Below, piece by piece: positions 17,366 to 63,559 of a DNA stretch of 64,000 nucleotides. How positions within the stretch are numbered: position 1 is the first letter of the stretch; every line of letters begins with the position of its first letter. The notes beneath the pieces were generated by a model. It worked only from the letters and a program-made list of their open reading frames with translations, ran no database searches and was not told the origin of the DNA. The position numbers were made by a program, and so were the translations under genes. Source of the stretch: Bacteroidota bacterium (lineage in GTDB: Bacteria > Bacteroidota > Bacteroidia > B-17B0 > Aurantibacillaceae); the NCBI GenBank assembly GCA_030681615.1, contig JAUXSA010000035.1:1-64000 (forward strand), given 5' to 3'.

Positions 17366-17399
17366 TTTGAAATTGTTAAAGTTTATTTAACTATATTTG
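17366..17399 (+). promoter_or_regulatory. Bacteroidota promoter (TTTG-N22-TATATTTG) of the PKD protein
   Basis: A -33-like TTTG (17366-17369) and a -7 box TATATTTG (17392-17399) fit the TTTG/TAnnTTTG promoter of this phylum. It places the transcription start just before 17410, which rules out the TTG at 17397 as a start codon and supports ATG 17427. Confidence 0.65.
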
Positions 17400-17426
17400 A
17401 TTATCAAATTTATAAATAAAATCAAC

Positions 17427-20400: not shown

Positions 20401-21983
20401 TTGTTGTTAGCCCACAAACATATCCTATTCCAAATTTCTCTCTTAATACAGGTAATGTTATTTGCAGGGATTCGCAGGTTGAATTTACAAGTACATCAAC
20501 AGTTGCATCAACACCGTCATACACATGGAACTTAAGTACAGGTAGTCCGATCCTTCCTGTTTCACCTGTTGTGTGGACATATACAGCCACAGGTCAGGCA
20601 GTTATTACGTTAACAGTATTCACATCAAACGGATGCGCCGCTTCAATTTCTAAAACACTTAGCATATTGGGTGCAGTTGCAAATCTTAATTTAGATAAAC
20701 AGGTTGTTTGTTTAGGTAATTCTATAAAATTCAATATCAAAAATGATTCTGATAATGTTTATATGTGGAGTTATGATTTTGGTGATGGGTCAACAGGGTC
20801 TTATACAGCCAACGCTTCGCCAACGCAAACAATAACACACACTTATAATTATTATCCTTTGCCAAATGGTACTACTACTGTTTCACTTTCTTACTATCCA
20901 TCTTCTGATATACTTAAGTGTCCAAGAACTGCAACTACAACCATTCAAATTATAAAAATTGTTGGCGATTTTGACAGGAATAATGAAGTGGCAAAAGTAG
21001 ATACAGTCCATTGTATTGGTGTTATTGATCAATTTAGTAATCAAACGCCTAATTCTTCGGGATACACATTTAACTGGAATTTTGGTGACGGAATAGGAAC
21101 TGCCAGTACTCAAAATCCTTCTTACACATACCCTAATGCCGGCGTTTATACAGTTACGTTAAATATTACCGATCCGGTAAATAATTGTTTTGGATTTGCT
21201 ATAAAGAACATGACCATTAATCCTTTGCCTAACGCTTTGGTATTTGCCAGAGATACCTGTCAAAATAGTCCATTCTTACTTAGTTCCAATCCAACGGTTG
21301 GAACAGCACCATTTTCTTATACATGGAATCCATCAGCTGGTGTAACTAATCCAAACAGTGCCAGTTCAACAGCTACTGCTTCTAATTCTACAATCTATAC
21401 TTTAACAATAAGCGATGCAAATAATTGCAAGAACTCTACAACCAAAAGTGTATATATACAATTGCCGCCGCCAAGTTTTACCTGGGATACAACAGTGATC
21501 ATTGGTCAGATTTCACAACTTAATAATAATTCGGGTACCAATTTTACTTATACATGGAGTCCGCCAACCGATCTAAGTTGTATTAATTGTCCTAACCCAA
21601 CATCTTCATCAACAGTTAACATAACTTATACTGTAACAATAGCCGATAACATGGGATGCTTTTTAGTAATGAATACGCATACTGTAAATGTTGAGTTAAA
21701 AGGAAGTGTTGATGTGCCAACTGCATTTACTCCAAACGGCGATGGTGTTAATGATGTTATTTATGTAGATGGTTGGGGTATAAGAAAACTTGAATATTTC
21801 AGGGTGTTTAACCGCTGGGGACAATTATTATTTGAAACCAATGACATTAGTGTAGGATGGGATGGCATGTTCAATGGCGTACCACAAAATATGGAAACCT
21901 ATGTTTACCAGGTTTCGGCTGATACATATGTTGGCGAAGGAAAACCCGTATTAAAAACAGGAACATTTAAATTACTTAAATAA
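17427..21983 (+). CDS. giant PKD-repeat adhesin-like protein, T9SS type B sorting domain
   Basis: 1518 residues from the chosen ATG. Signal peptide (about 1-23, ending FSQ), then a long chain of PKD/Ig-like repeats recognised by YTWNFGDG, YAWNFGN, FTWDFGDG and FNWNFGDG with YxxxGxYxVTLxVTD endings. The last ~85 residues are the gliding-motility-associated (type B) C-terminal domain: PTAFTPNGDGVNDV, FNRWGQLLFE, GWDGMFNG, YVYQVSADTYVGEG. It is exported through T9SS and held at the surface or released. The downstream PorP/SprF gene starts 5 bp after its stop, the arrangement known for SprB and SprF in gliding flavobacteria. Function (adhesion or gliding) is inferred from class only. Confidence 0.93.
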   Translation: MFRQKIKLFMFLFSVCIFYNSFSQITVSPTVGCLPLTGVSFSGPAGATGITWNFGDAVTSNQASPTHNYTSVGNFIVTYNATVGASPVTYTALVVVHGNPTASFTYTVPSIRCKPLNVPFTSTSSGPAPISTYTWNFGDGGQGSGSTPIWTYNLQGAFFVTLLVTDVNGCTSALSTQQGPINVSTPPTVVISSNPLALVSCTAPFTAAFSGSNCVSGSPIPGPLASYAWNFGNTQTSTQQTPGNITYNTPGTYNVTLTVTDNNNCSATANTQVSVSQPTLQTTIPGTVCLNAPFTVSFQTNQSNTLWNFGSPPTPTVLNTGPGPTTNSLYTPGYSAPGVYTINISAGSFPCTAVQTKTIYVEQVVANFTFTPPSLTCNPVFSGSYINQSSPNAISYTWSTTNGAGLTATSTAANPTFTFTHGSLFPHTIFQPYALNVILTVQSANGCLATISHAYDTIHRTTAWFNKNKSGGCAPLTVTFRDSSFTNPAFPIATYTWNNGATPATTVTGVAPPIPNFVHTYTAVGTYTPYLIVQTANGCIDTSFIDTVHVVNPPTFNFAVTPSVVCWNQPVTVSITPTSTNPVQHWHVNSDNGFFSHCINDPNPSWNFTHVGVHSFTVEGYSHGCKGIATNPLSVTVKGPIVQSRYETNCNAGTRKNIKFFSHMQDVANATLNFGDASAPVAIVGLPGGVATHSIAHTYTASGNYTAVITATNTPTGCNPYTYTMLVTVRDIQANFTYSNVGCATISQTFDATPSIDVLQTCKRGYVWYVDNLPPRDTTSAILTHTFATTGIHNVMLMVKDENSCIDTTNHTIRISNANPTFAFSSNTICLSSGTVQLINTTAQTPDPVQDFTWDFGDGSPLLTTTVLTSPFHQYLSANSPSQNYTVILTATNSLGCVQVSPTLAITVVNPLATLNPSNFLPCIPTGPGNLATNTVTFTAPPAYTSYTFTYGDGSSSVTTTNNITPHTYTAQGTYTATLIVDIGGCKNTGSVVVSPQTYPIPNFSLNTGNVICRDSQVEFTSTSTVASTPSYTWNLSTGSPILPVSPVVWTYTATGQAVITLTVFTSNGCAASISKTLSILGAVANLNLDKQVVCLGNSIKFNIKNDSDNVYMWSYDFGDGSTGSYTANASPTQTITHTYNYYPLPNGTTTVSLSYYPSSDILKCPRTATTTIQIIKIVGDFDRNNEVAKVDTVHCIGVIDQFSNQTPNSSGYTFNWNFGDGIGTASTQNPSYTYPNAGVYTVTLNITDPVNNCFGFAIKNMTINPLPNALVFARDTCQNSPFLLSSNPTVGTAPFSYTWNPSAGVTNPNSASSTATASNSTIYTLTISDANNCKNSTTKSVYIQLPPPSFTWDTTVIIGQISQLNNNSGTNFTYTWSPPTDLSCINCPNPTSSSTVNITYTVTIADNMGCFLVMNTHTVNVELKGSVDVPTAFTPNGDGVNDVIYVDGWGIRKLEYFRVFNRWGQLLFETNDISVGWDGMFNGVPQNMETYVYQVSADTYVGEGKPVLKTGTFKLLK

Positions 21984-21988
21984 AGATC

Positions 21989-22993
21989 TTGAAAAAACTG
22001 GTTTTATATTTTATTTGTTTTTTATTCGTTCAGAATTTAAGTTCTCAGGATATTCATTTTAGTCAGTTCTATTTTTCACCGCTTTCTTTAAATCCTGCAA
22101 ATACAGGTAACTATAAAGGCGATTATCGTTTCTTTGGAAATTACAGAAGTCAATGGCGCGATATTTCTAAAGCATACAATACATTTAGTGCTGGTGGCGA
22201 TTTTAATATTTATCCAAGCAACCAAAACGTTAGTGGCGGTTTAATTTTTATTAACGACAAATCAGGTGGTAATTTAAAGATAACGAAGATAATGCCTTCG
22301 GCGGCTATTCATAAAAAAATTGCCGGTTATAATTTACATATTGGTATACAACCCGGAGTAGTTATTAAGAGTATTGATTTTTATGCACACTCTTTTCCAA
22401 ACCAATTGAACTGGAACACCGGAATGTTTGATAATTCATTACCTAATATTGAAACAGGAGTGAGTCAACGTTTTACTTATTTTGATCTAAATACAGGTTT
22501 TGCCGCATCTAAAAGATTTGGAAAAATAGAACCTGAGATCGGTTATTCTTTGTTTCATTTAAATAAACCTAAAGAAAGTTTTTTAGGAAACGCTAATAAA
22601 TTAAAAGTACGCCAGGCATATAATATTAATTTAAATTATTATTTAAATCCTACGATCATTTTAAAAGGGTACACCATGTATGGTTATACTACAAAGGTAA
22701 GCGATTGGGTAACTGGTTTAAATGTAGAATATGTGCTTTCAAAAAATGTATTCTTTACCAACTCTGTTTTTGCTGGTTTTATGTGGCGCGATGGCTTTAA
22801 AAGAAATCCAGATGCCGGAATTGTAACAGCCGGTATAAATTATTCGCATTACACTATTGGCTTTAGTTATGATATTACTTTCTCGCAGTTAAAAACGGCA
22901 GTAGAAAGCAAAGGTGCATTTGAATTAGCACTTATTTATAAAGCGAAAAATACACGTTTAAGCAAAAAAGCTGTTCCTTGTGAGAGATATTAA
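21989..22993 (+). CDS. PorP/SprF-family T9SS outer-membrane protein
   Basis: 334 residues, TTG start 5 bp after the PKD gene. Signal peptide ending SSQ, then DIHFSQFYFSPLSLNPANTG, the hallmark N-terminal motif of the PorP/SprF family. A predicted beta-barrel of alternating aromatic strands follows (GNYRSQW, GGLIFINDKSGG, GLNVEYVLSKN, GINYSHYTIGFSYD). Members help secrete or anchor type B CTD proteins at the outer membrane, so this one is probably dedicated to the PKD protein before it. The next gene of the locus is separated from it by an inserted transposase unit. Confidence 0.93.
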   Translation: MKKLVLYFICFLFVQNLSSQDIHFSQFYFSPLSLNPANTGNYKGDYRFFGNYRSQWRDISKAYNTFSAGGDFNIYPSNQNVSGGLIFINDKSGGNLKITKIMPSAAIHKKIAGYNLHIGIQPGVVIKSIDFYAHSFPNQLNWNTGMFDNSLPNIETGVSQRFTYFDLNTGFAASKRFGKIEPEIGYSLFHLNKPKESFLGNANKLKVRQAYNINLNYYLNPTIILKGYTMYGYTTKVSDWVTGLNVEYVLSKNVFFTNSVFAGFMWRDGFKRNPDAGIVTAGINYSHYTIGFSYDITFSQLKTAVESKGAFELALIYKAKNTRLSKKAVPCERY

Positions 22994-23011
22994 ACGAGTT
23001 TATAAGAACTA

Positions 23012-23048
23012 ATTGCCACGACAAATTGCCACGACCTTCAGGTCGTGG
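23012..23048. repeat. REP-like palindrome, left flank of the RAYT gene
   Basis: A perfect 20-bp palindrome ccacgacctt/caggtcgtgg (23029-23048) is preceded by a partial copy (gccacgac, about 23015-23022) and followed by ggctttagccaaaat (about 23071-23085). The same two motifs recur on the right side of the transposase gene. Confidence 0.8.
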
Positions 23049-23094
23049 AAGAAATGAAAAAAATAAAAAGGCTTTAGCCAAAATAAAATTTAAA

Positions 23095-23562
23095 ATGCCT
23101 TATACTAAAATATATATTCATTTTATTTGGTCAACAAAAAACCGAACTCATTTAATTGATAAAGAATTAAAGCCGGTGTTACTTGCTCATATAAAAGAAA
23201 ATAGTATTAAAAAAGAGATATTCATTGATACCCTTAATTGTGTTTCAGATCATATTCATTTGCTTGTTTCTCTTGGCAACGAGCAGACGATAGCCAAAAC
23301 AGCAATGCTTATAAAAGGAGAATCTTCTTTTTGGGTAAATAAACAACAGTTAATTAAAACAAAATTTGAATGGCAGGACGAATATATTGCTTTATCAGTA
23401 AGTTATTCTGCAATTGATAAAGTAAGGGCATATATATTAAATCAGGAAGAGCATCACAATAAAAAAACCTTTACGGAAGAGTATAACGAGTTTATTGATG
23501 CTAATCAAATTGATATTTTGGCTAAAGCCGATAAAAATTTAATGAATGAATCCACGGCCTAA
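23095..23562 (+). CDS. IS200-like REP-associated tyrosine transposase (RAYT)
   Basis: 155 residues from the ATG giving MPYTKIYIHFIWSTKNR. The frame also continues upstream through the left hairpin to a TTG, but the family begins here. HUH motif DHIHLL (with preceding NCVSDH) binds the metal; a Tyr in SVSYSAI or in AYILNQEEHH is the candidate nucleophile, the latter being the usual Y-helix (NQxxHH). Such Y1 transposases nick single-stranded DNA at hairpins. The stop codon lies inside the right-hand REP palindrome. It sits between the sprF-like and porE-like genes, so the unit probably inserted into a T9SS operon without destroying a gene. Confidence 0.9.
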   Translation: MPYTKIYIHFIWSTKNRTHLIDKELKPVLLAHIKENSIKKEIFIDTLNCVSDHIHLLVSLGNEQTIAKTAMLIKGESSFWVNKQQLIKTKFEWQDEYIALSVSYSAIDKVRAYILNQEEHHNKKTFTEEYNEFIDANQIDILAKADKNLMNESTA

Positions 23563-23650
23563 AGGCCGTGTCAACAAAGTGCAATAATATTGCCACGACC
23601 TGAAGGTCGTGGATAATAGATAAAACAATAGATGGCTTTAGCCAAAATGA
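23551..23650. repeat. REP-like hairpins, right flank of the RAYT gene
   Basis: Two palindromes follow each other: cacggcct/aaaggccgtg (23553-23570, containing the transposase stop in its loop) and ccacgacctg/aaggtcgtgg (23593-23612). A small hairpin tggctttagcca (23633-23644) follows. The second palindrome and the gctttagccaaaat motif mirror the left flank, giving the unit matching ends. Confidence 0.8.
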
Positions 23651-23670
23651 AAATTAGATAATAACGAATA

Positions 23671-25713
23671 GTGATAAAAAATATTAAATACATACTGATT
23701 TTTGTGTTGTTTGCTTTTGCTGCCCAGTCACAATCAGACTCCATGCTGGTTAAACGCTCATCACCAAAAACCTTAAAACGTTTAGGTAAAAGTGCAATGG
23801 AACAAAATGATCCCAGCAGTGCTATTACTTTTTACGAAGCTTATTTAAATATTAATAACCGTGATGCAAAAGCAAAATTTCAATTGGGACAAGCTTATTT
23901 GCAGATCCGGGATTATGATCGCGCTCAGCGTATGTTCTTGAACGCTTACGAAACAGATGTTGAAAAGGCGCCGACCTCTTTATACTATCATGCGCAAATG
24001 CAAAAATCAAATGGTCTGTACGATAGTGCGAAAATAAATTTTCAAAAATTTAAGAAAGAATATAAAGGCGAAGAAAAAGGTTTAAAGAAACAGGCTACAA
24101 AAGAAATTGTGTTTTGCGATTCGGTACAAAAGCTCGTGAATACTGAAAAGAAAGTGGTTATTTCACATTTAGATTCTACCATTAATAAAGTTAATACTGA
24201 AGGCGCACCTGCTAATATTAACGACAGTACTTTGGTGTTTACATCTCTTAGAACAGATAAAAAAGAATTTATTATTGAAGATGATACAGCGCAAACCATT
24301 AAACGCAAATTATATGTTGCCAAACGCGAGAACAACGAATGGAAATTTGGTGGTGAGTATGGAGGTAATTTAAACGAAGCGGAATTTAATACAGGCAACG
24401 CTTGTTTTAGTCCGGATAGAAAGCGGGTTTATTTTACACGATGTAAATTAAATTTTAAAGAAGAAATGATCTGCGCTATTTACGTCTCCGAAAAAAAAGG
24501 AGATGAATGGAGTGAGCCTGTTAAATTACCAAAGAATGTAAATAATCCTAAGTTCACTGCTACTATGCCAGCGGTTACAACAGATCCGGCAAAAGGCAAC
24601 GATGTTATTTATTTTGTAAGTAATAATAAAGAGGGCAGGGGAGGTTTGGATATTTGGTACACGGTTTACGATAAAAAGAATAACGTTTACAAAACTCCAA
24701 AAAATGCAGGTAATAAAATAAACACAGCTCAAAATGAAATAACACCATTTTTTGATAATGAAACCCGCACTTTATATTACAGTTCAGACGGTTTGGGAGG
24801 TTTGGGTGGTTACGATGTGTTTAAAGCTGCAGGTGATGGAAAAAAATGGTTAGCTCCTGAGAATGTAGGCCAACCTATAAACACCGGAGCTGATGACATT
24901 TTTTATACGATCTCTACCAACCGCGAAGAAGGTTTTTTTGTAAGTAACCGTAAAGGTGGTAATGCTTTAAAGAACAGCACTTGTTGCGATGATATTTATA
25001 CGTATAAACACACGGAGTACATTAAAATTAATTTGTTAGGGAATGTAAACGAAATGATTGACCCTAATATGTCTATAGCACAAGCAACTGTTGAAGTTTA
25101 TATTGTAGATAGAAAGACCAAGGAAAAATTCCTGGTTAAAATTATTGAAAGCGATAAGAGCGGAGATTTTAAAACTACGGTTGAAGCCAACCAGGATTAT
25201 TTTTTAATTGTAAAGAAGAATGATTTTTTAGGAAATACGGCTGAAGTAACTACCAAAGGAATTACTACATCGCAGGATATAACCAAAACAGTTTTGTTGG
25301 CTAAAAAACCAAAAGAGCCAATTCGTATCCCAAACATTCAATACGAATTTGATAAATCAAATATTTTAGAAGCCAGTAAAATTGCTATTGATACAACTGT
25401 GTTATCCTTAATGGAAGCTAACCCTGAATTAATTGTAGAGATCATGTCGCACACGGATAGTAAAGGTAGTGATAAATACAATGAGAAATTATCGCAGCAA
25501 CGGGCTGAGAGCGTTGTATCACACTTAATAAGTAAAGGTATTAAAGCCGAACGTTTAAAAGCAAAAGGTTATGGCGAGAGCAAACCTATTGCACCAAACG
25601 AAAATCCGGATGGTAGTGATAATCCTGAAGGACGTGCACAAAACAGACGCACGGATTTTAAAATTATTGGCGTACTGGATGTAGAGATCATTAATGCGGC
25701 AGAAGTGGATTAG
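23671..25713 (+). CDS. PorE-like TPR / PD40 propeller / CRD / OmpA protein
   Basis: 680 residues, GTG start. Signal peptide (about 1-21, AAQSQ), TPR helices (about 30-130), a PD40/WD40-like propeller (about 185-440; motifs NACFSPDRKRVYFTR, GRGGLDIWYT, GLGGYDVF), a carboxypeptidase-regulatory-like domain (about 455-545), and a C-terminal OmpA domain (about 555-675; IQYEFDKSNI, SHTDSKGSDKYNEKLSQQRA, GRAQNRRTDF) that binds peptidoglycan. This order is that of PorE, a T9SS-associated periplasmic protein, but many paralogues exist. No lipobox Cys is seen. With the PKD and PorP/SprF genes it forms a secretion/adhesin locus. Confidence 0.88.
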   Translation: MIKNIKYILIFVLFAFAAQSQSDSMLVKRSSPKTLKRLGKSAMEQNDPSSAITFYEAYLNINNRDAKAKFQLGQAYLQIRDYDRAQRMFLNAYETDVEKAPTSLYYHAQMQKSNGLYDSAKINFQKFKKEYKGEEKGLKKQATKEIVFCDSVQKLVNTEKKVVISHLDSTINKVNTEGAPANINDSTLVFTSLRTDKKEFIIEDDTAQTIKRKLYVAKRENNEWKFGGEYGGNLNEAEFNTGNACFSPDRKRVYFTRCKLNFKEEMICAIYVSEKKGDEWSEPVKLPKNVNNPKFTATMPAVTTDPAKGNDVIYFVSNNKEGRGGLDIWYTVYDKKNNVYKTPKNAGNKINTAQNEITPFFDNETRTLYYSSDGLGGLGGYDVFKAAGDGKKWLAPENVGQPINTGADDIFYTISTNREEGFFVSNRKGGNALKNSTCCDDIYTYKHTEYIKINLLGNVNEMIDPNMSIAQATVEVYIVDRKTKEKFLVKIIESDKSGDFKTTVEANQDYFLIVKKNDFLGNTAEVTTKGITTSQDITKTVLLAKKPKEPIRIPNIQYEFDKSNILEASKIAIDTTVLSLMEANPELIVEIMSHTDSKGSDKYNEKLSQQRAESVVSHLISKGIKAERLKAKGYGESKPIAPNENPDGSDNPEGRAQNRRTDFKIIGVLDVEIINAAEVD

Positions 25714-53196: not shown

Positions 53197-53817
53197 TTAC
53201 ATTAAAACCGTAATACTGCATTTTTGTTTTGTTGCAAAGATCTCTTCCGGGGTTAAATGTTTAGTTGAAACAGCTGTATTAAAATCTATATTAATGCAGT
53301 TATAGCAATGTTGTACAAAAGCCGAGCAAAAAAGAGAATTTTCCTGAGCTAATAAATTCTCGGTGCTGCGGTTCTTTCCTGTTAGCGAAAATAAAACACC
53401 AAATATTTCGCGGATGCTGTACTCGGTTCTTATTGCCACTAAATTTAAGGCTTCGGCTATTACTTTATTTGTATCTTCTTTGCTTAAATTAAAATCAAGA
53501 ATAGCAATGTGAGAGAAGAGGGCCTTATCAAAATATTTATCGGCGCGGTTTTCCTGAACACCAACGCGCATTTGTTTTTTATAAAACTCCAGGTCAGATT
53601 CAATTACCCACCATTTTTTATCCTGCCTTATTTCATTAAATATAAAAGCGTGTGACCATAAACTTTCTTTACCATTCGATGTGATTTTTTTCTGGTATTT
53701 TTTTATTGATTTATCTATAAAGTGAGTGCCGCCAACTAAACCTACACAACCTTGTTTAGCATACTTCTCAATAAATTCCTGGTTGGATAGACCTTTTATT
53801 TCGGTTATGGAATTCAC
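53197..53817 (-). CDS. YiiX-like permuted papain-type amidase/peptidase
   Basis: 206 residues, no clear signal peptide. The circularly permuted NlpC/P60-type triad is visible: H56 in LWSHAFIF, acidic E73 in VIESD, and nucleophile C164 in FCSAFVQHC. GCVGLVGG near the N terminus may form the oxyanion-side loop. Relatives (YiiX/YebB, DUF830) are predicted cysteine amidases or acyltransferases of unknown substrate. It begins 2 bp after the stop of the giant TPR/PD40 gene on the same strand, so the two proteins may act together. Confidence 0.75.
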   Translation of the reverse strand: MNSITEIKGLSNQEFIEKYAKQGCVGLVGGTHFIDKSIKKYQKKITSNGKESLWSHAFIFNEIRQDKKWWVIESDLEFYKKQMRVGVQENRADKYFDKALFSHIAILDFNLSKEDTNKVIAEALNLVAIRTEYSIREIFGVLFSLTGKNRSTENLLAQENSLFCSAFVQHCYNCINIDFNTAVSTKHLTPEEIFATKQKCSITVLM

Positions 53818-53819
53818 TC

Positions 53820-56800
53820 TTACCTGTTTAATAAAGCAGCAGCTTCAGCACCATAAACTTTTTTACCATCTTTGTAAACAGTAATAAACGCATCGGTAAT
53901 ACCAATACTAACGGCTTGCTCTTTTAATGTTTTAGCGAATTTTGCGTCTGTAAAATTACCAATGTTGTAAATGTATAACGCGTTAATGAGTTTATTCTCA
54001 ACCGGCCATGCTTTAATGGCTGAGAATCTTGCCGCAACATCATTAGGTACTTGTCTGCTGTATGCACCTATCTGTACTTTAAAGCTAACACCTTCTTCGT
54101 TTGCTTTAACACCATTTTCAGGCGTAGCAGCAGGGTAACTTGTTACACCATTCGTAAATGGTTGTACTGTTGTTGTAACTGCCGGTGTATTATTTACTGG
54201 CGTATTGTTTACTGGTGTGTTATTAACCGGCGTATTATTTACAGTACCACCTTCAGGGAAAACGATCGGATTTTGCGGTTCTAATTTTACTGAAGAGTCG
54301 TTTACTTTTTTGTCTTTACCTTCTGCAAAAGTTATACGTTTACCATTTAAGTATGCACTTACAAATGCGTCGCGCACATAACCTTCAGCAACTCTTCTCT
54401 TATCTGTTAATAATCTTTCAGGATCGCTGTATATTCCGGCAGTATAACGGTATAAACCGCTTGGTAATTTCTCGCTGAAGATAGGACCAAGACCTTTTAA
54501 CTGACCTTTAGTTACCTGCCTGTTATAAACACCAATTTGAACGGTAAATAATAAACCATTTATTTGTTCTAATTCTTTTGTAACGTTAACGGGTTCTGTT
54601 ATATTAAAATTAGTTTGGGTAACTGTTGTAGCATTTACTTTTGGCACATTTGAATTGGCTGTAATGCCGGCAGACGTTGGCGCGTTGTTATCTATGGTTT
54701 TACCTTCTTTATTCAATAATTCAATTGCTTCTGCAATTGTAACACGTTTACCGTTAAAGTAAGCTACAACAAAGGCATCGTTATAACCTAAATTACGAAG
54801 ATCATTTTTAACCGCACTTGCGTTCTCAAACTTAACAAAGTTACCGGCCGTGTAACGGATGTAACCATTACCAACGGTTTCGCCATTAAGCGGACTTAAA
54901 CCTTTAAAGGCATCGTTTGCCAATTGATTTTTGAATGCACCAATTTGTACCCTGAACACCAATCCGTCTGGCATTTTTGAATCTACAGGAATTGGTTTAG
55001 CTGCGTTATAAGCATTACCAGATACAACTTCAAGACCTTCGATCTTAACTGTTCCTTTAGTGTTGTTTACAGCTGGATTGGTTGTGTTATTATTTGCAGT
55101 GTTGTTAGGATTATTCCTTGGGTTGTTATTGGTTGTGTTGTTACCGTTATTTCTTGGGTTATTATTGGCAGTATTATTTGCAACTACTTTATCGCCGGTA
55201 ATTTTGTTTAACTGGTTAACGGCTGCATCACCTGTTTTTGCAGCTAAAGTAAGCAGTTTGGCTTTTTCTGTTGGCTTTTGTTCTTGTGTTGATTTAATTA
55301 ATAAACGTTTTGATTCAGCATTTAATTCGTCTGCATTTTGTTTTACTATCTTTTCGTCTGCCGTTAAATTTTTTGGAACATATGTTTTTGCTGTTTCGTA
55401 TTCTAAACTTAAGGCATTGGTTAAATTGGTTAATTCTAATGATTGTTTATCTTGTACCGTTTTTTGTTTTTGAGCTAAGTTTGGTGGTAAATTAGAAGTA
55501 GTGTTATTATCAATAGTAGCAGGTTTAACTATATAATCAGGATATGTTTTCTTTAGCTCTGTAATTAACTGATTTTGTTTAATAAGTAATTCTGCTTCTT
55601 TTTCTTCAGCATTACTTAATGCACCTATTTTTGCAGCGGTGTTTGTTTGCGCATTAGCTTCTTCTCTTAATTTTTGTGCTTGCGTTTTTAAAACAGCTAC
55701 TTCATTATTTTTTTGTTCTAATTCAGTTGTTAGAGTAGGGTTATCAGTTTTTAATTTGGTCAACAACTCCGTAATAGCATTGTTATTTGTTTTGTAATCT
55801 ATTTCATTGCCTTGTTGCGTTAAAGTAGAAGCTTCCGCCTTTTTATTTTGAGATGTATTCTCAAACTCATTTGCTTTAGCAATAAGACTATCTTTTTCGG
55901 TTCCTGAAGCTGTATTGGCTTTGCTTTTTAATTCAGATGATTTATTACTTAGTTCTTCCGCTTCAACAGTTAATGCATCTGCTTTTGTTTTAAGTTCTGC
56001 CGGTGTTATATTGTTTGTTGTTGCGGTTGGGTTTTGATCTTTATAGGTTTTTATCTCTGCTTCAACTGCATTGTTCTCTTCGTCGGTATTTTTTAATTCT
56101 GTAAGTGCGTTATTTTTTAATCGGTTAGCCTGTGGATTTTTAAGTGTAGTAGGTTGTTTATTTTCAAAATAACCTAAGATCTGATTAGCCGTAGTATCAG
56201 TTTTACTTAATTCATTTATACCAACTGTTTTTGTATCCACCACTTTTGTAGTTGCGGTAGTTGTATTATCCTTTGTAGCAGATGAAGTAGTTGTTGCAGT
56301 AGAATTGTCTTTCGTTGAATTATCTGTTGTTGTATTGTCCTTTGTGCTGTTGTCTTTTGTAGAATTATCTTTTACAGTTGTTGTAGCAGTTGCAGTAGAA
56401 TTCTCACTGATAGTATTGTCCTTTGTTGAATTATCTTTCGTTGAATTGTCTTTAGTGTTATTATCAGTTGTTGTATTATCCTTGGTGCTATTATCCTTTG
56501 TTGAATTGTCTTTAGTGTTATTCTCTTTAGTGGTATTAGCAGCAATTTGATTGTTAACTTTTTTGTTCAAGGCATTCAATTGATTAATAGCTTCCAGTTG
56601 TTTTTTTGTAGCGGCTATCAGGTCATTTAATTTCTCATTATTGTTTGTACCTGAATCTGATTTTTGTTTTAAACCTGTTGCAGCGGCAACTTTATTATTA
56701 GCCGCAATTGATTCACTTTTTAAACTTGGAGTGTTAGATATAATAGTTTCATTTGGTTTTAAACTGTTATTTAATTGTTCTATCTCTAAAACATTGGCAT

Positions 56801-59800
56801 CGTATAATTTTTGGTAAGCAGCAGTTTTAGTTGCAGCCAAACTGTTTAACTCTGTATTAACGGCTTCGAGCTTGGCGTTTACTGTATTATCATCCTTCAC
56901 TACTTTAATAGATGAAGTAGAGGTTAGTGCAGTTTTTAAAGTAGTCGTAGGATCTGATTTTTTAAGTAGATTAAGCGCTTCTTGTTGTTTATTAAGTGCC
57001 CAGGCTTCTTTTTCTTCCGCATTGCTCATGCTTCCTAATTTAGCACCGGCGTTTGGTAACGAGTTAGCTTCAACCCTGATATTCGCAGCTTGTTTAAATG
57101 CAACTGCTGCTTCATCATTCATTTTCTTCGCACTTTCAATATCTGCATCGGATGCTTTTTTATTGGCGATCAGCGTATTTATATTATCAAGGTTGGTGTT
57201 ATAAATTGCAGAGTTATCATTTTTTGCAATTTCCGCGGCCTGTAAATTTTTTTCGTTACCCTGGTCTTCTAAAGTTTTAGCTTCACTTAATAATTTTTCC
57301 TGTTCAGCACCAGTCTTCGTTTGCGCATCGTTCTTTAATTTTTGTGATTTGCCAAATAACTCTTCCGCTTCAATATTTAATTGTGTTGGTGTTACATTAT
57401 TAGAATTAGTTCCAATATCCGATTTTTGAAGTTCAGCTTTGGTGGTGGCAATAATGTCTTTTAATTTCTTTTGTTGTGCAAAGGCGTCATTAATTTTTGA
57501 ATCGGCTTCTATTTTTAATTTTTGTGCTTCTGTATTTTGGTAAGAGTTATATTCAAAATTGGCATTATCATTAGTGCTTAATTGATTATTAAGGTCATCA
57601 AGATTTTTTATGGCCTCGCCGTTATTTTTAGCAGCAATAGGGTTAAGGTTAATTGTTTTTTCGTTAGGATTAGATGTAGTATTTGTTTTTGCGATCTCTG
57701 CATTTAATGTTTGTACTTTTTTATTATTATTTGCAATTAACAAGTTGTTCTCTTTTTTAGAAGTTTCCAATTGTTTTATTTCGTTCGTGATTTGTGTTTT
57801 GGCTGCAGGTGTTTTTGCTTTTACTAATTCTTTTTTATTGTTAGCAATTGCCGCGTCAATTTCTTTATTGTAGCTAAGAATTTGTTTGTTGCTTTCAATA
57901 TAGTTTTGCGGACTGTTTACATCGGTAACAGCAATTTTATCTTTGTACTTATCTTCCAATACCTTATCGGTAATTTTATTTGCGGCTGTAGCAGTTACAC
58001 TTGTGTTAGTGCCAATAGCACTGGTTGTGCCTGTTGAACCGGCGGTGTTGGTGTTAATGGCATTTGTTTTAGCCGCTGCAATTGTCTCCGTCTTAACTTT
58101 TGTTGCAAGGTCTAATTCATTTTTCAGAGTAGCCAACTCATCATTTAATTTTTTGATCTCAACCTGGTTTTGCGCAACCTGTTTTTCTTTTTCTGCCTGT
58201 TCTGTTTTAAGTTCGGTTATCTGGTTATTTATAACTTCTTTATCCTTTTTCTTTTTTGTATTGCTAAGATCTACTTGATCACTTGTTATCTCATTTTTAA
58301 TATCACCAATTTCATTATTTAATGACCTATTTGTTTTTTCTACAATATCAATTTCTTTTTCTTTTTGCTCTACATTTTCCTTTATTGATTTGTAAAGGTT
58401 ATCCGAAGTCTTTTCTTTATTTGATAATGCTGCAATTTGTTTTTGAAGGTCATCGAGTTTTGCTAACGACTCGGTGTTATTCTTATTTTTATTAATGTTT
58501 ATTTTTTCAAGTTCGTTGGCATACTGTTCATTTAAGATAGCCTCTTTTTGTTTATTGGCGGCATCTTCTTTTAATGAGTTGGCAAAAGTTAAGATCTTAT
58601 TTGCGGTTGCCAGTTCATTCTCTCCTTCAGCTTTAAGAGCGTTACCTTTTTCTATCTCTTTATTTTTTTCCTCTTCATTGGCTATAGTTTGTGCATTCTT
58701 AAGAATATCATCACCTTCGGCTATTTTTTTATTTGCCTCTATTTTTTTCTGCTCACCTAATTGTTCTGCATCCCATTCATCCTGCTGTAATTGCGCCGCT
58801 TCTTTTTTAGAATCGTTAGCATCTTGTTTGGCAATATCTAACAGTTCTTTATTAGATACTGCGGCTACCGTTTTTGTTGTGGCTATACTTGTTGTGTTTA
58901 CAGCAGCTTTAGTTGTTGTATCAACACCTGCATCAACAACTGTTGGGCCGGTATTGGTATTTGTATTAACAGCCACATTGTTTTTTGCTGTAGTATCCAA
59001 TACGGTTGGACCAAGTTTATTTTCCCCTTCGTTCACATCAAGTTTCGATTTCTTCTCGATGAGTTTTAGGTATTGCAAATAACTATCGTCGGTTGGTGTT
59101 TCATCAAAATAGTTTAAGATCTTTAATATACCCTTGTCGTAAGAAATAGTTTGTTTTAACGGTCTGGAGTTTGTAGCAAGAGGTAAGCCAACCCTTTCTG
59201 ATTGTGTTTTTAAACCAGGCGTTTCAACCGTGTATAACAACTTTGCACCATTTGGAAGATCCATTAAATAATTACCATTGTCTTCTGCTTCATACACACC
59301 AACAATTTCGCCATTGCCCATGTTTTTTACAGTAACCTTGCTTTTTAAACTTTGTTGGGCGTTTTCTTTTACAACCGTTCCTTTAAGCACTAAAATATCT
59401 ATGATCTTACGTTCAGTATTAACTTTTAAGACATCAATTTTTCCCGGGGGGCTTTGACGACCTGTACTAAAATACGCTACTTTTTCTAGAGAATCGGTTA
59501 CATACAAGTAATCGTCATCTGGTGAGTTAATAGGAAATTCAAGGTTTATAGGCTGTGTCCACGAATCTGTTGCTTCAATATAATCAGATTTAAAAATATC
59601 GTAACCACCCATGCCATTGTGGCCTTTACTGGCGAAATAAAGTGTTCTTCCGTTAGGATGAAGGAATGGATAATCTTCATCGTAATCGGTATTGATGCCA
59701 TTTAATTTTACAGGTTTTGCAAATTCGCCGTTTGCTAATTTAATAGCGTAGTAAATGTCTTTGCTGGTTGTGTTTTCGCCATAGCTGCTAAAAAAAACTT

Positions 59801-60476
59801 TGTTAGCACTGCGCGGTAAATAGACAACTGATTTTTCTTTTTTTCTTTTATCGGCGCTGGTTCTAAAGGCTTCGGGTTTTATCAATAATTTGCCGCCAAT
59901 GTCTTTAAGATCGTAACTTCTAAAATAATCGGCCTCGTTCAGTTGTTTTTTTGCCTTTATTTCAAGATCAGTTAGATTACTTAATAGGCGTTTACCATAA
60001 CCGCAGGAAATAATTTCCCGATCGACCATTAATTTTTTTTGTTTAGAAGAGGAGCCTACCTGTTTGTATTCGTTATAAAATTTAATTGCTTCATCAAACA
60101 TGTAATTAATGTGGTATGCTTTCCCCAAATAGAACTTTACTTCTTTTGAAGTTTCTTCTGCACGGCTATTAGCAAAAATGAGATAAGGCAGACATTTCTT
60201 TTTATCCGGCTCGCTGTAGATCATACAAACTCCTAGTCTAAAATTGTATTCAGGATCTTTTGGATAATTGGAAACTAGCTGTGCATAAAGCTTGTAAGCC
60301 TTGGTAAACTCATCATCTTCATAGAGTTTGTCGGCTTCTTTTTTAATATCTTCGATAGAAATATTTTGAGAAAAAACAGGGCAAGAAATTATCAGTGTCA
60401 ATAAAACGATCGTTTTTTTAACAATTCTTAGTTCTGGGAATAAAACGTTTAATAAGGTATAAAACCTTAATCTCAT
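53820..60476 (-). CDS. 2218-residue TPR / PD40 / coiled-coil / SPOR-like envelope protein
   Basis: The ATG gives a long signal peptide ending in CPVFSQ. Then come TPR helices (about 45-160), a PD40-type propeller (about 200-350; NKVFFSSYGEN, GHNGMGGYDIFKSD), a regulatory-like beta domain (about 365-440), and roughly 1400 residues of coiled-coil rich in N, K, E, A and T (AQQKKLKDI, SKKENNLLIANNNKK). A low-complexity KDNST repeat lies at about 1315-1400. Three SPOR-like modules lie at the C terminus (VQIGAF near 1838, VQIGVY near 1974, VQIGAY near 2129). SPOR domains bind denuded peptidoglycan glycan strands. The N-terminal half resembles PorE-like proteins, with SPOR modules in place of the OmpA domain. 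Probably a periplasm-spanning structural protein; function unknown. Confidence 0.82.
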   Translation of the reverse strand: MRLRFYTLLNVLFPELRIVKKTIVLLTLIISCPVFSQNISIEDIKKEADKLYEDDEFTKAYKLYAQLVSNYPKDPEYNFRLGVCMIYSEPDKKKCLPYLIFANSRAEETSKEVKFYLGKAYHINYMFDEAIKFYNEYKQVGSSSKQKKLMVDREIISCGYGKRLLSNLTDLEIKAKKQLNEADYFRSYDLKDIGGKLLIKPEAFRTSADKRKKEKSVVYLPRSANKVFFSSYGENTTSKDIYYAIKLANGEFAKPVKLNGINTDYDEDYPFLHPNGRTLYFASKGHNGMGGYDIFKSDYIEATDSWTQPINLEFPINSPDDDYLYVTDSLEKVAYFSTGRQSPPGKIDVLKVNTERKIIDILVLKGTVVKENAQQSLKSKVTVKNMGNGEIVGVYEAEDNGNYLMDLPNGAKLLYTVETPGLKTQSERVGLPLATNSRPLKQTISYDKGILKILNYFDETPTDDSYLQYLKLIEKKSKLDVNEGENKLGPTVLDTTAKNNVAVNTNTNTGPTVVDAGVDTTTKAAVNTTSIATTKTVAAVSNKELLDIAKQDANDSKKEAAQLQQDEWDAEQLGEQKKIEANKKIAEGDDILKNAQTIANEEEKNKEIEKGNALKAEGENELATANKILTFANSLKEDAANKQKEAILNEQYANELEKININKNKNNTESLAKLDDLQKQIAALSNKEKTSDNLYKSIKENVEQKEKEIDIVEKTNRSLNNEIGDIKNEITSDQVDLSNTKKKKDKEVINNQITELKTEQAEKEKQVAQNQVEIKKLNDELATLKNELDLATKVKTETIAAAKTNAINTNTAGSTGTTSAIGTNTSVTATAANKITDKVLEDKYKDKIAVTDVNSPQNYIESNKQILSYNKEIDAAIANNKKELVKAKTPAAKTQITNEIKQLETSKKENNLLIANNNKKVQTLNAEIAKTNTTSNPNEKTINLNPIAAKNNGEAIKNLDDLNNQLSTNDNANFEYNSYQNTEAQKLKIEADSKINDAFAQQKKLKDIIATTKAELQKSDIGTNSNNVTPTQLNIEAEELFGKSQKLKNDAQTKTGAEQEKLLSEAKTLEDQGNEKNLQAAEIAKNDNSAIYNTNLDNINTLIANKKASDADIESAKKMNDEAAVAFKQAANIRVEANSLPNAGAKLGSMSNAEEKEAWALNKQQEALNLLKKSDPTTTLKTALTSTSSIKVVKDDNTVNAKLEAVNTELNSLAATKTAAYQKLYDANVLEIEQLNNSLKPNETIISNTPSLKSESIAANNKVAAATGLKQKSDSGTNNNEKLNDLIAATKKQLEAINQLNALNKKVNNQIAANTTKENNTKDNSTKDNSTKDNTTTDNNTKDNSTKDNSTKDNTISENSTATATTTVKDNSTKDNSTKDNTTTDNSTKDNSTATTTSSATKDNTTTATTKVVDTKTVGINELSKTDTTANQILGYFENKQPTTLKNPQANRLKNNALTELKNTDEENNAVEAEIKTYKDQNPTATTNNITPAELKTKADALTVEAEELSNKSSELKSKANTASGTEKDSLIAKANEFENTSQNKKAEASTLTQQGNEIDYKTNNNAITELLTKLKTDNPTLTTELEQKNNEVAVLKTQAQKLREEANAQTNTAAKIGALSNAEEKEAELLIKQNQLITELKKTYPDYIVKPATIDNNTTSNLPPNLAQKQKTVQDKQSLELTNLTNALSLEYETAKTYVPKNLTADEKIVKQNADELNAESKRLLIKSTQEQKPTEKAKLLTLAAKTGDAAVNQLNKITGDKVVANNTANNNPRNNGNNTTNNNPRNNPNNTANNNTTNPAVNNTKGTVKIEGLEVVSGNAYNAAKPIPVDSKMPDGLVFRVQIGAFKNQLANDAFKGLSPLNGETVGNGYIRYTAGNFVKFENASAVKNDLRNLGYNDAFVVAYFNGKRVTIAEAIELLNKEGKTIDNNAPTSAGITANSNVPKVNATTVTQTNFNITEPVNVTKELEQINGLLFTVQIGVYNRQVTKGQLKGLGPIFSEKLPSGLYRYTAGIYSDPERLLTDKRRVAEGYVRDAFVSAYLNGKRITFAEGKDKKVNDSSVKLEPQNPIVFPEGGTVNNTPVNNTPVNNTPVNNTPAVTTTVQPFTNGVTSYPAATPENGVKANEEGVSFKVQIGAYSRQVPNDVAARFSAIKAWPVENKLINALYIYNIGNFTDAKFAKTLKEQAVSIGITDAFITVYKDGKKVYGAEAAALLNR
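56290..56535 (-). repeat. 15-bp (NSTKD) tandem repeat region
   Basis: Degenerate 15-bp units coding N-S/T-T-K/T-D recur about fifteen times, interrupted by A/T-rich spacers. Such tracts tend to change copy number by slippage. Confidence 0.75.
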
Positions 60477-60608
60477 AAAATCAATTGTTGTAAAATTAAT
60501 AATATTATTAGAATGAAGCTATATTAATTGAGGTGCTATAACTAATAAATTTCCATATTACTTGTGTTAAAAATATGATAAATTAACTATAATTTAAAAT
60601 TAATGAAT

Positions 60609-60616
60609 TATATTTG
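60609..60616 (+). promoter_or_regulatory. -7 box TATATTTG
   Basis: Exact TAnnTTTG match 28 bp before ATG 60645; it excludes the upstream ATG at 60603 as start codon. Confidence 0.55.
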
Positions 60617-60644
60617 CACATTAACCTTTAAAACTAAAAACAAA

Positions 60645-61691
60645 ATGATTAAAAAATTACTTATTGTTGCTTCAGTTGCTTTATCAGTTACTGCTAGCGC
60701 GCAAACAGGCAGAATTGTTACGAATACTCAGATCTTAGAAGCTAATTCTGAAATTTCAAAATCTATTACTTACAAGGCTTCATCAGCTGCTTTAGGTTGT
60801 GATACAATTACAACTGCTCAAAACGCTTCATTAAGCTTAAATACAGCAGGTTCTGATACAGCTACTCCAGGTTGTTCTCCAAAAGCAGGATATGTTTTTG
60901 GTTCAAACTGTTACCAGGATAAAGAAAAGGCAAATTATTTTCCAATAGCTTCTTATAGCTCAATTGCTCAAGGTACTGTTACTGGTGTTATCGTTACCTT
61001 CTTTAAGAACTTAACAAGAGGTACTGGTGGTACTCCAACTTCAACTGTTGGTATGACTGTTTACAATGGCTCTTTAGCAGGCGGACCAACTAGTGTTTTA
61101 AGTCAAACTATGGCTACAATGGCACAAGTTTTAGCTGCTCAAAGTAATCCTTCTGTTACAGCTTTCAGCTATTTATTTAGCTTACCTGGTGGTGGTGTTG
61201 TTGCACCAACAACTGGCGGCTTTTTTGCTTCAGTTGTAATTCCAACAGTTGCTGGTGATACAGCGGTAGTATTTAACTCTCCTGCTTCTACAATTGATTA
61301 TGGATACGAAAAATGGTCTGATAACTCATGGCATTCAATCAGCTCTGCATGGGGTGCAGCTTTAAAAGCTAACTTATCAATTTACCCAATAGTTTGTGGT
61401 AACGTTGTTATCACAGGTATCTCTAAAAACTTAGGTATAAGCAAAGATGTTAAAATTATGCCAAATCCATCTACTGGATTAGTTAATTTAGCTGTTACTT
61501 TACCAAGTACTCAAGATCTTAATGTTACTGTAACTAATGCTTTAGGCCAGGTTATTGTAAACAATAATTATAACTCAGTTTTAGTTGATGTAATTTCTTT
61601 AGACCTTAACAATCAAACTAACGGTGTTTATTTTGTTACTGTTAGCAATGGTAAAGATAAAATGGTACAACGTTTGATCATCAACAAATAA
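60645..61691 (+). CDS. secreted protein with T9SS type A sorting domain
   Basis: 348 residues from ATG 60645 (MIKKLLIVASVALSVTASAQ, signal peptide). The middle is a Thr/Gly/Ser-rich beta domain of about 250 residues that I do not recognise; the segment GCSPKAGYVFGSNCYQDKEKANYF contains its Cys residues. The last ~75 residues are the type A C-terminal domain (VKIMPNPSTGLVNLAV, VTNALGQVIVNN, LDLNNQTNGVYFVTV, MVQRLIINK). This is cleaved on export, and the protein is attached to A-LPS or released. A strong promoter and a perfect terminator suggest high expression. It forms a pair with the next gene. Confidence 0.9.
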   Translation: MIKKLLIVASVALSVTASAQTGRIVTNTQILEANSEISKSITYKASSAALGCDTITTAQNASLSLNTAGSDTATPGCSPKAGYVFGSNCYQDKEKANYFPIASYSSIAQGTVTGVIVTFFKNLTRGTGGTPTSTVGMTVYNGSLAGGPTSVLSQTMATMAQVLAAQSNPSVTAFSYLFSLPGGGVVAPTTGGFFASVVIPTVAGDTAVVFNSPASTIDYGYEKWSDNSWHSISSAWGAALKANLSIYPIVCGNVVITGISKNLGISKDVKIMPNPSTGLVNLAVTLPSTQDLNVTVTNALGQVIVNNNYNSVLVDVISLDLNNQTNGVYFVTVSNGKDKMVQRLIINK

Positions 61692-61712
61692 TTTTATTTT
61701 AAATTTTTTTTT

Positions 61713-61746
61713 AAAACCCTCACCGTAAATTCGGTGAGGGTTTTTT
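61713..61746 (+). terminator. perfect Rho-independent terminator
   Basis: A 13-bp perfect stem aaaaccctcaccg / cggtgagggtttt with a taaatt loop and T tail. Confidence 0.95.
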
Positions 61747-61850
61747 AATTAAAACGATTTTAGAAAAAAAACAGTTGTCCAATGCTTTCCCCAAATTGTT
61801 AAAAATAAATTTAAATGATTTATTTTCTGTAAATGGATTTATATTTTTTA

Positions 61851-61858
61851 TATATTTG
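61851..61858 (+). promoter_or_regulatory. -7 box TATATTTG
   Basis: Exact TAnnTTTG match 30 bp before ATG 61889; the upstream TTG at 61775 is thus not the start. Confidence 0.55.
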
Positions 61859-61888
61859 ATACTTAAACATCTAAAAAACGAAAAAAAC

Positions 61889-63559
61889 ATGAAAAAAATT
61901 ACTTTAACTTTATTTACCGCAATGCTTTCATTGGCATCATTTGCTCAGGTAAACACTGTAGTAAATGTTCCAACGCCAAATACGGCACCTGGAACTACCG
62001 GCCTACGTGCTCCGAATGGAACTACAGGTCATACAGTAATGAGAGGTCAATACTTTATTCCTACAGCTGATCTAACAGCTTTATCACCAACTATTACATC
62101 TTTTGGTTTTGCATTAACAAGTGGTGTTAATGCTGCTGCATCTGGTACTTTAACTGTTTATCTTGTTCACACAAGTGCTACATCTTATACTGCAGGTACT
62201 ACATGGAACACAGCAGGTATGACTACAATTTATTCAGGGGCATATAGCATTCCTGTTGGAGCTGCTGCTGCAAATGTAGATTTAACTTTACCTTCTGCAT
62301 TTAACTATACTGGTGGTGCTTTAAATATTGCTTATGAATATACTGCTGGTGTTACTGCTGGTACAGGTGCAATTTATACTGCTTTTGCAGGAACTGCTTT
62401 AGGTGCTACAGGTGCTTCAGCTTCTCTTACTGCACCAGTATTAGGTGGTACAGGTTTTAGACCAGTTTTACGTTTTGGTACTCCAAACACGTTCACTAAC
62501 GAGATCGTTGTTCAAAGTATTAACGCTCCGGGTAAATACCCAACTACATTTGCTACACCTCAGGCTGTAACTGCTGTAATTATGAACGGAAGTAACATTA
62601 CTAAAACAAACATTGGTGTTGGTTTAAGCATCGCAGGTTCAAATCCATTCACAAATGCTCAATTCATTGCATCTTTAGCTGCTGGTGCAACTACAGTTGT
62701 AACTTTTGCTGCTGCTCCAACATCTGTTCAAGGTATTCAAACAGTTTCAGTAGGCGTTGCTCCTGATCAAAATAACCTTACCAATACAATTACTCAAACT
62801 CAAAGCGTTACTTGTGATGTTTGGGCTTATAATCCTCCATCTGGTTCTTATACAGCTGGTGTTGGTTTTAATACTGGTTCAGGTATTATTAGCAGCCAAT
62901 TCTCTACGCCTGTAAATGCAACTACAACTGCTGTTCGTATTGCTGTTTCAACAGATACTGCTACTCCGGGTAATTCTATCTACGGTGTGTTATTAAACAC
63001 TGCAGGAACAATTATCGGACAAACTAACACAGTTGTTGTTACTCCTGGTATGTTAGGTACATTCCAAACTTTAAACTATACAACTACTCAGGCTTTAACT
63101 GCTGGTACAATTTACTATACTGGTCTTGCTCAAACTGCAAATGCTACAGGTTGGTTCCCACTTGGTTCACAAGCAACGCCTGTAACTCCAACTAATTATT
63201 ATACTTCTGCATTAACTGCTACAGCTGCACCTGCTTTTTTAGCAAGTAACTTAGGTTATTTTGGTATCGAAGCTGTATTCACTAGTACTTGTGGATCTAT
63301 TGGTCTTACTGAGTTAGTTGCTGCATCTAAAGTTGCTGTTTATCCTAACCCAACTGTTAATGGTAAAACTACTATTGCAGGTTTAGAAGGAACTAACACA
63401 GTTACTGTTTACAACATGTTAGGTCAATCAGTTTTAACTTTAACTTCAGACAGAGAAGTAGTTTCAATTGATCTATCTAGCCAGCCTTTAGGTAACTATT
63501 TAGTAAGAGTTACTGATTCTAATAAAGCTACTAAAACAGTTAAAATTATCAATCAATAA
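61889..63559 (+). CDS. secreted protein with T9SS type A sorting domain
   Basis: 556 residues from ATG 61889 (MKKITLTLFTAMLSLASFAQ, signal peptide). A beta-rich, Thr/Ala/Gly-dominated body (about 30-480), not recognised, with a possible adhesion or lectin-like layout (VNVPTPNTAPGTTG, GTLTVYLVHTSATSY, QTQSVTCDVWAYNPPSGSY). It ends in a type A sorting domain (VAVYPNPTVNGKTTIAGL, YNMLGQSVLTL, LSSQPLGNYLVRV, KTVKIINQ). It has its own promoter and terminator, and codon use very similar to the gene before it. Confidence 0.9.
   Translation: MKKITLTLFTAMLSLASFAQVNTVVNVPTPNTAPGTTGLRAPNGTTGHTVMRGQYFIPTADLTALSPTITSFGFALTSGVNAAASGTLTVYLVHTSATSYTAGTTWNTAGMTTIYSGAYSIPVGAAAANVDLTLPSAFNYTGGALNIAYEYTAGVTAGTGAIYTAFAGTALGATGASASLTAPVLGGTGFRPVLRFGTPNTFTNEIVVQSINAPGKYPTTFATPQAVTAVIMNGSNITKTNIGVGLSIAGSNPFTNAQFIASLAAGATTVVTFAAAPTSVQGIQTVSVGVAPDQNNLTNTITQTQSVTCDVWAYNPPSGSYTAGVGFNTGSGIISSQFSTPVNATTTAVRIAVSTDTATPGNSIYGVLLNTAGTIIGQTNTVVVTPGMLGTFQTLNYTTTQALTAGTIYYTGLAQTANATGWFPLGSQATPVTPTNYYTSALTATAAPAFLASNLGYFGIEAVFTSTCGSIGLTELVAASKVAVYPNPTVNGKTTIAGLEGTNTVTVYNMLGQSVLTLTSDREVVSIDLSSQPLGNYLVRVTDSNKATKTVKIINQ

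Follow-up and report, generated by a model that had tools for sequence, protein, structure and literature searches.

What could a protein that begins like PorE and ends in SPOR domains do in the cell envelope? Such a protein is encoded in the window (a 64,000-nucleotide stretch of DNA from a Bacteroidota bacterium), at 53820-60476 of the minus strand. It has 2218 amino acids, and we will call it the giant. An initial annotation had suggested that it could be a peptidoglycan-anchored scaffold that spans the periplasm and has a dedicated amidase, encoded on the same strand at 53197-53817 (206 amino acids). Both open reading frames are where that annotation put them. It knew of no described system of this composition, and our search of the open-access literature found no description of a protein with the giant's composition either.

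The giant is recognized as an open reading frame, by Pfam and NCBIfam models, by ortholog searches, and by structure prediction. A sister genome has the same pair of genes. Its giant is intact, with 2256 amino acids, and is 96% identical to the window's giant across the N-terminal 470 residues (the two amidases are 94% identical). Against the sister genome, dN/dS is 0.03 for both the N-terminal part and the SPOR part of the giant; for the spacer it is 0.05-0.09. Because these ratios are low, we conclude that the giant is a real, intact gene under purifying selection.

Domains of the giant

From the N terminus to the C terminus, the giant has a signal peptide, a TPR domain, a PD40 propeller, a CRD-like domain, a helical spacer, and three SPOR modules (all coordinates below are on the minus strand). 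The signal peptide (residues 1-37; 60366-60476) is of the type I kind, with cleavage between ..FSQ and N. In a pattern search, 56 of 61 orthologs had a hydrophobic core with a type I-like ..[ASG]Q site after it, and 4 of the 61 had a lipobox. By these patterns, the giant is exported and non-lipidated in most orthologs. (The PorE homologs of Flavobacterium johnsoniae are mostly exported and likewise not predicted to be lipoproteins; PMC7192894.) The window's giant and its sister contain a lipobox-like string, IISC, so the lipidation status of the window's own giant is ambiguous, and it is for this giant alone that lipidation is conceivable.

The N-terminal part had been described as TPR and PD40 domains like those of PorE, and this was borne out. 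The TPR domain (about residues 38-169; 59970-60365) is found by profile and by its predicted fold (Z = 16.6, rmsd 2.3 over 119 residues), and Pfam's TPR matches the whole protein weakly. The PD40/WD40-like propeller spans about residues 170-365 (59382-59969), with a Pfam PD40 match at residues 261-295 (6.3e-6, whole-protein search). Between the propeller and the spacer is a CRD-like all-beta domain (about residues 366-457; 59106-59381), which was missing from the initial annotation. The structural model has about twenty beta strands for the propeller and the CRD. We aligned residues 1-490 of 28 relatives from across the class, and the NCBIfam models for PorE (NF052230) and CHU_0125 (NF053607) match all 28, with a best E value of 8.6e-31. 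In the window's giant, these matches span about residues 174-413, which is the propeller and part of the CRD. The PorE match covers only positions 296-472 of PorE in a search of the giant's own genome; it stops inside the CRD, where the structural model has beta strands.

Is the giant a PorE, then? PorE (PG1058) has the same TPR and PD40 propeller in the same order, followed by a CRD (a putative one in the giant), is periplasmic, and has a wall-binding domain at its C terminus. Unlike PorE, the giant has no OmpA_C, mostly no lipid anchor, a spacer of about 1340 residues, and three SPOR modules. (We found no Pfam match to OmpA or OmpA_C in the whole protein or in its C-terminal part.) The giant scores 78.5 bits against the PorE model, whose curated cut-off is 600, and 91.4 bits against the CHU_0125 model, whose curated cut-off is 620. 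CHU_0125 is a Pal-like protein which shares the TPR and PD40 head, but it has 656 amino acids and an OmpA_C domain, which the giant lacks. By OmpA_C, lipidation, and score, the giant lies outside PorE, but it would be expected to act as a tether of the PorE or Pal type.

The spacer (about residues 477-1815; 55032-59048) had been described as about 1,400 residues of coiled coil. It is helical, but it is not a single coiled coil. In the model of residues 38-1190, which reaches into the spacer as far as residue 1190, long helices of up to 61 residues form pairs or groups that are interrupted by disorder, and the linkers are 47-77% asparagine, threonine, serine, and proline. These separate bundles and linkers rule out a continuous rod. 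A helical block of about 155 residues is duplicated, with the copies 470 residues apart (residues 1032-1183 and 1501-1654; 56928-57383 and 55515-55976). Alignment and profile both find the block, and its self-alignment score is 252, as compared to a maximum of 82 in 200 shuffles. With a profile of the block, we detected between one and five copies per sequence in 66 giants, and no match among the other proteins of the retrieved loci. Because the pTM of the models for parts of the giant is low (0.34-0.37), we treat its overall length and shape, and a span across the periplasm, as possibilities. In the fold search with the 1,153-residue model of residues 38-1190, which was informative for the TPR domain only, we discarded matches to axonemal and dynein proteins as helix-on-helix superpositions (rmsd about 15-60).

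The C-terminal modules had been called SPOR-like, and sequence and structure agree that they are SPOR domains. Module 1 (residues 1835-1925; 54702-54974) is identified by Pfam, the model, the fold search, and a profile; module 2 (residues 1971-2061; 54294-54566) by the model and a profile; and module 3 (residues 2126-2218; 53823-54101) by the model, the fold search, and a profile. Pfam's SPOR model (PF05036) scores 29.1 bits on the C-terminal 403 residues and 19.9 bits on the whole protein, against a cut-off of 21. It matches all 31 of 31 relatives of the giant at E <= 0.001. The AlphaFold2 model of the C-terminal part has a mean pLDDT of 83 and a pTM of 0.37, and it contains three well-predicted alpha/beta domains. 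When we compared these to known structures, module 3 matched most strongly. It is similar to the SPOR domains of CwlC (Z = 7.5, rmsd 2.3 over 73 residues, 29% identity), RlpA (Z = 6.8), and DamX (Z = 5.4), while the best photosystem match has Z = 5.1. Module 1 matches the SPOR domain of DedD (Z = 4.2) and module 2 has no match of its own; in the model, neither has the helix with which a SPOR fold starts. Although Z values of this size are only moderate, SPOR domains account for four of the five best matches and the sequence profiles concur. For instance, a profile of modules 1 and 2 finds CwlC at 4.2e-5.

We also examined residues that correspond to functional positions in RlpA, where Gln270 contacts the glycan (PMC6895207). 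By motif, position 10 of our module alignment corresponds to Gln270, and it is an invariant glutamine in 43 sequences of modules 1 and 2. Position 40, which by motif fits Arg309 of RlpA, is a nearly invariant arginine in these modules. Module 3 has the glutamine, but the arginine is missing. Given a PorE-like N terminus and the SPOR fold at the C terminus, the predicted domains support the view that the giant is a peptidoglycan-binding scaffold.

Distribution and gene cluster

In a search with the head of the giant, 78 of the order's 87 genomes yielded a strong ortholog (E below 1e-100), in almost every case as a single copy. Across the class, strong orthologs (E <= 1e-60) are present in 128 of 296 genomes (43%) and in 62 of 165 genera. 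Cultured relatives with the giant include Brumimicrobium salinarum (Crocinitomicaceae). At this threshold, the other 168 of the 296 genomes are without a strong ortholog, so the giant would not be the only tether in the class.

The window's genome has 45 matches to the PorE profile, one of which is in the window itself, at 23671-25713. We built a tree from 32 giants together with 18 PorE-like proteins from this genome; all of the giants were on one side of a single branch, with support of 100/100. The giant orthologs form a clade of their own, separate from the PorE-like proteins of the same genome. (This genome also has another large PorE-like open frame of 1,438 amino acids, at C168:752-1525, which failed the profile used for the tree.) Another giant is in a complete chromosome, CP034120.1, that was filed as Glaciecola amylolytica, a gammaproteobacterium. 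It lies inside the Bacteroidota gene cluster described below and is 77% identical to the giant of a Fluviicola MAG, and the record is probably mislabelled.

To describe the neighborhood of the giant, we surveyed 40 loci spread over the class. (The gene names come from recognizing and clustering the sequences rather than from family searches.) The order on one strand is an exported protein of about 1,490 amino acids, plsY, the giant, clpS, and an M48 protease, then nfeD and floA. Of the 40 loci, 19 have plsY immediately upstream of the giant and 23 have clpS immediately downstream; in 35, one or more markers of the cluster lie near the giant. In the window's order, any marker is kept in only 2 of 20 loci. 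The cluster is the ancestral setting of the giant and was lost in the window's order. Its second large exported protein, which is uncharacterized, had no convincing match in Pfam or NCBIfam. (This is P0003, at L122:336-4805; in the window's genome, it is split over contigs C3 and C94.) It is present in 240 of the 296 class genomes and in 84 of the 87 genomes of the order.

Possible functions of the giant

Our best explanation, to which we give about an even chance, is that the giant is a soluble protein, exported to the periplasm, that serves as a scaffold and links outer-membrane proteins to the cell wall, with the septum as the most likely site. The export signal, the homology of the head, the SPOR domains, the conservation in single copy, and the ancestral cluster are seen directly, while the head's partner, glycan binding, the septal location, and a mechanical role are inferred. 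We prefer it because a PorE-type head is joined to SPOR modules in place of OmpA_C. PorE binds peptidoglycan via its OmpA_C domain and also binds PorP (PMC7192894, PMC9143113), and cells that have lost CHU_0125 have a damaged outer membrane (PMC5891637). On the outer-membrane side, the TPR-propeller-CRD head of the giant would bind a partner; the helical spacer would supply reach and flexibility, and the three SPOR modules would bind glycan strands that have been stripped of peptides. A SPOR module is known to recognize the denuded, septal wall (PMC6895207). Such strands are enriched at the division septum, where amidases act, and the giant would be drawn there. It would then perform the kind of tethering that Pal and PorE do, with no lipid anchor and with SPOR replacing OmpA_C. 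Several observations count against this explanation. A strong ortholog is missing from 168 of the 296 class genomes at the threshold used, module 3 is without the Arg309-type arginine, and the low pTM makes the arrangement of the domains tentative. The giant's own genome is rich in PorE-like proteins with OmpA domains, which could do the tethering in general. The neighbors plsY, clpS, and the M48 protease do not point specifically to division.

Would the giant, as a septum-targeted tether, replace Tol-Pal in constriction across much of the Bacteroidota? The Bacteroidetes are reported to be without identifiable tol-pal loci, and a role as a compact tether that resembles CpoB, TolB, and Pal has been suggested for PorE (PMC12204202). 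The proposed tethering of the outer membrane to the wall, perhaps at the septum, would resemble that of Tol-Pal. Also, the TPR and propeller folds of the giant recall CpoB and TolB (the argument that was made for PorE), so a CpoB/TolB-like head would be joined to SPOR domains by a long helical arm. Unlike Tol-Pal, the giant is one polypeptide with no OmpA/Pal domain, and no motor has been identified at the giant. We consider the replacement of Tol-Pal to be a doubtful extension of the tethering scaffold. Still, the giant is a testable candidate for a missing link between the outer membrane and the wall, for instance in cultured Crocinitomicaceae such as Brumimicrobium.

Alternatively, the giant might serve as an anchor for surface adhesins or for type IX secretion, with a head that holds a PorP/SprF-like barrel or the PorK/N ring in the way that PorE does. 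The SPOR modules would fix the giant to the wall, and septal targeting would be incidental. The homology of the head to PorE fits with this, as do the known complexes of PorE, PorP, and proteins with type B CTDs (PMC9143113). The type IX component GldM is present in 287 of the 296 class genomes, including nearly all of those with the giant. But GldM is so nearly universal in this sample that its presence says little about a strict link between the giant and type IX secretion. Many genomes without the giant also have type IX secretion, so the distributions of the two do not match, and we saw no porP-like gene in the conserved cluster at the 40 class loci. Furthermore, the window already has a canonical set of type B CTD, PorP, and PorE-like proteins, at 17397-25713. 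This region encodes, in a row, a PKD-repeat surface protein with type IX sorting (CHU_C), a barrel of the PorP/SprF type, an IS200-like transposase, and then, at 23671-25713, a PorE-like protein with OmpA. (Apart from the insertion element within it, this is the arrangement already known for PorP and PorE-like proteins.) Overall, we think that a role in type IX secretion is unlikely.

The conserved gene order, with a marker at most class loci, raises another alternative: the giant could work with the products of the ancestral cluster (the 1,490-residue protein, PlsY, and the M48 protease) in the homeostasis of the outer membrane or of phospholipids, and not in division. Of the 128 class genomes with the giant, 127 also have the 1,490-residue protein. 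However, 113 genomes without the giant have this protein too, and these counts can be explained by shared descent. The window's order broke up the cluster yet kept the giant, and we judge such a partnership to be quite improbable.

The SPOR modules could instead mark the giant as a division regulator of the FtsN, DamX, or DedD type. SPOR would then bring it to the septum, where its head or its helices would attract wall synthases or hydrolases or switch them on, in place of a mechanical tether. FtsN, DamX, DedD, RlpA, and CwlC share the SPOR fold and its conserved VQ.G motif with the giant. Unlike these proteins, the giant has three SPOR modules, a PorE-like head, and no enzyme domain. FtsN, DamX, and DedD carry a membrane anchor, while the giant has a signal peptide and no anchor of that kind, and no divisome gene was seen in the conserved cluster at the 40 class loci. 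DamX and DedD are reported to stimulate class A synthases (PMC7642682). Given its type of head, a regulator of this kind would be a long shot.

The amidase gene next to the giant

The amidase gene begins 2 bp beyond the giant, with a GTG start codon. Its product is a permuted papain-like (C92-like) amidase, as identified by Pfam, a match to a structure profile, and its homologs. It resembles a solved cysteine peptidase (3kw0; E = 0.0094) and it has histidine, glutamate, and cysteine in the same permuted order as Peptidase C92 (YaeF/YiiX; PF05708), although its score of 22.4 bits is below the cut-off of 27. A PHROGs match was weak (9.8e-4). The predicted catalytic residues (His56, Glu73, and Cys164) are at least 95% conserved among the homologs, in keeping with the initial annotation. 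Because there is no signal peptide (nor did we find a signal-peptide-like start in other members), the amidase is probably cytoplasmic.

The idea that the amidase is dedicated to the giant was not borne out. The initial annotation had named as a refutation that the two genes would seldom be neighbors, and this is what we found. The amidase is present in 21 of the 87 genomes of the order, and it adjoins the giant in 7 of the 87, all from the window's own genus. Other amidase genes lie away from the giant, most genomes with the giant are without such an amidase, and we saw no homolog near the 40 class-level orthologs. The close spacing on one strand is real, but the operon that had been proposed comes down to this adjacency, which is rare. 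Despite the 2-bp spacing in 7 genomes and the conserved catalytic residues, a dedicated two-gene envelope system is hardly credible, and we rejected the amidase as the giant's partner. The plain reading is that it became an incidental neighbor through local rearrangement. We also dropped a defense-system reading of the locus because a PADLOC search gave no match.

On the other side of the giant, and divergent from it, are genes for two secreted proteins with type IX sorting tails (60603-63559). At several loci from the order, related secreted proteins again adjoin the giant.
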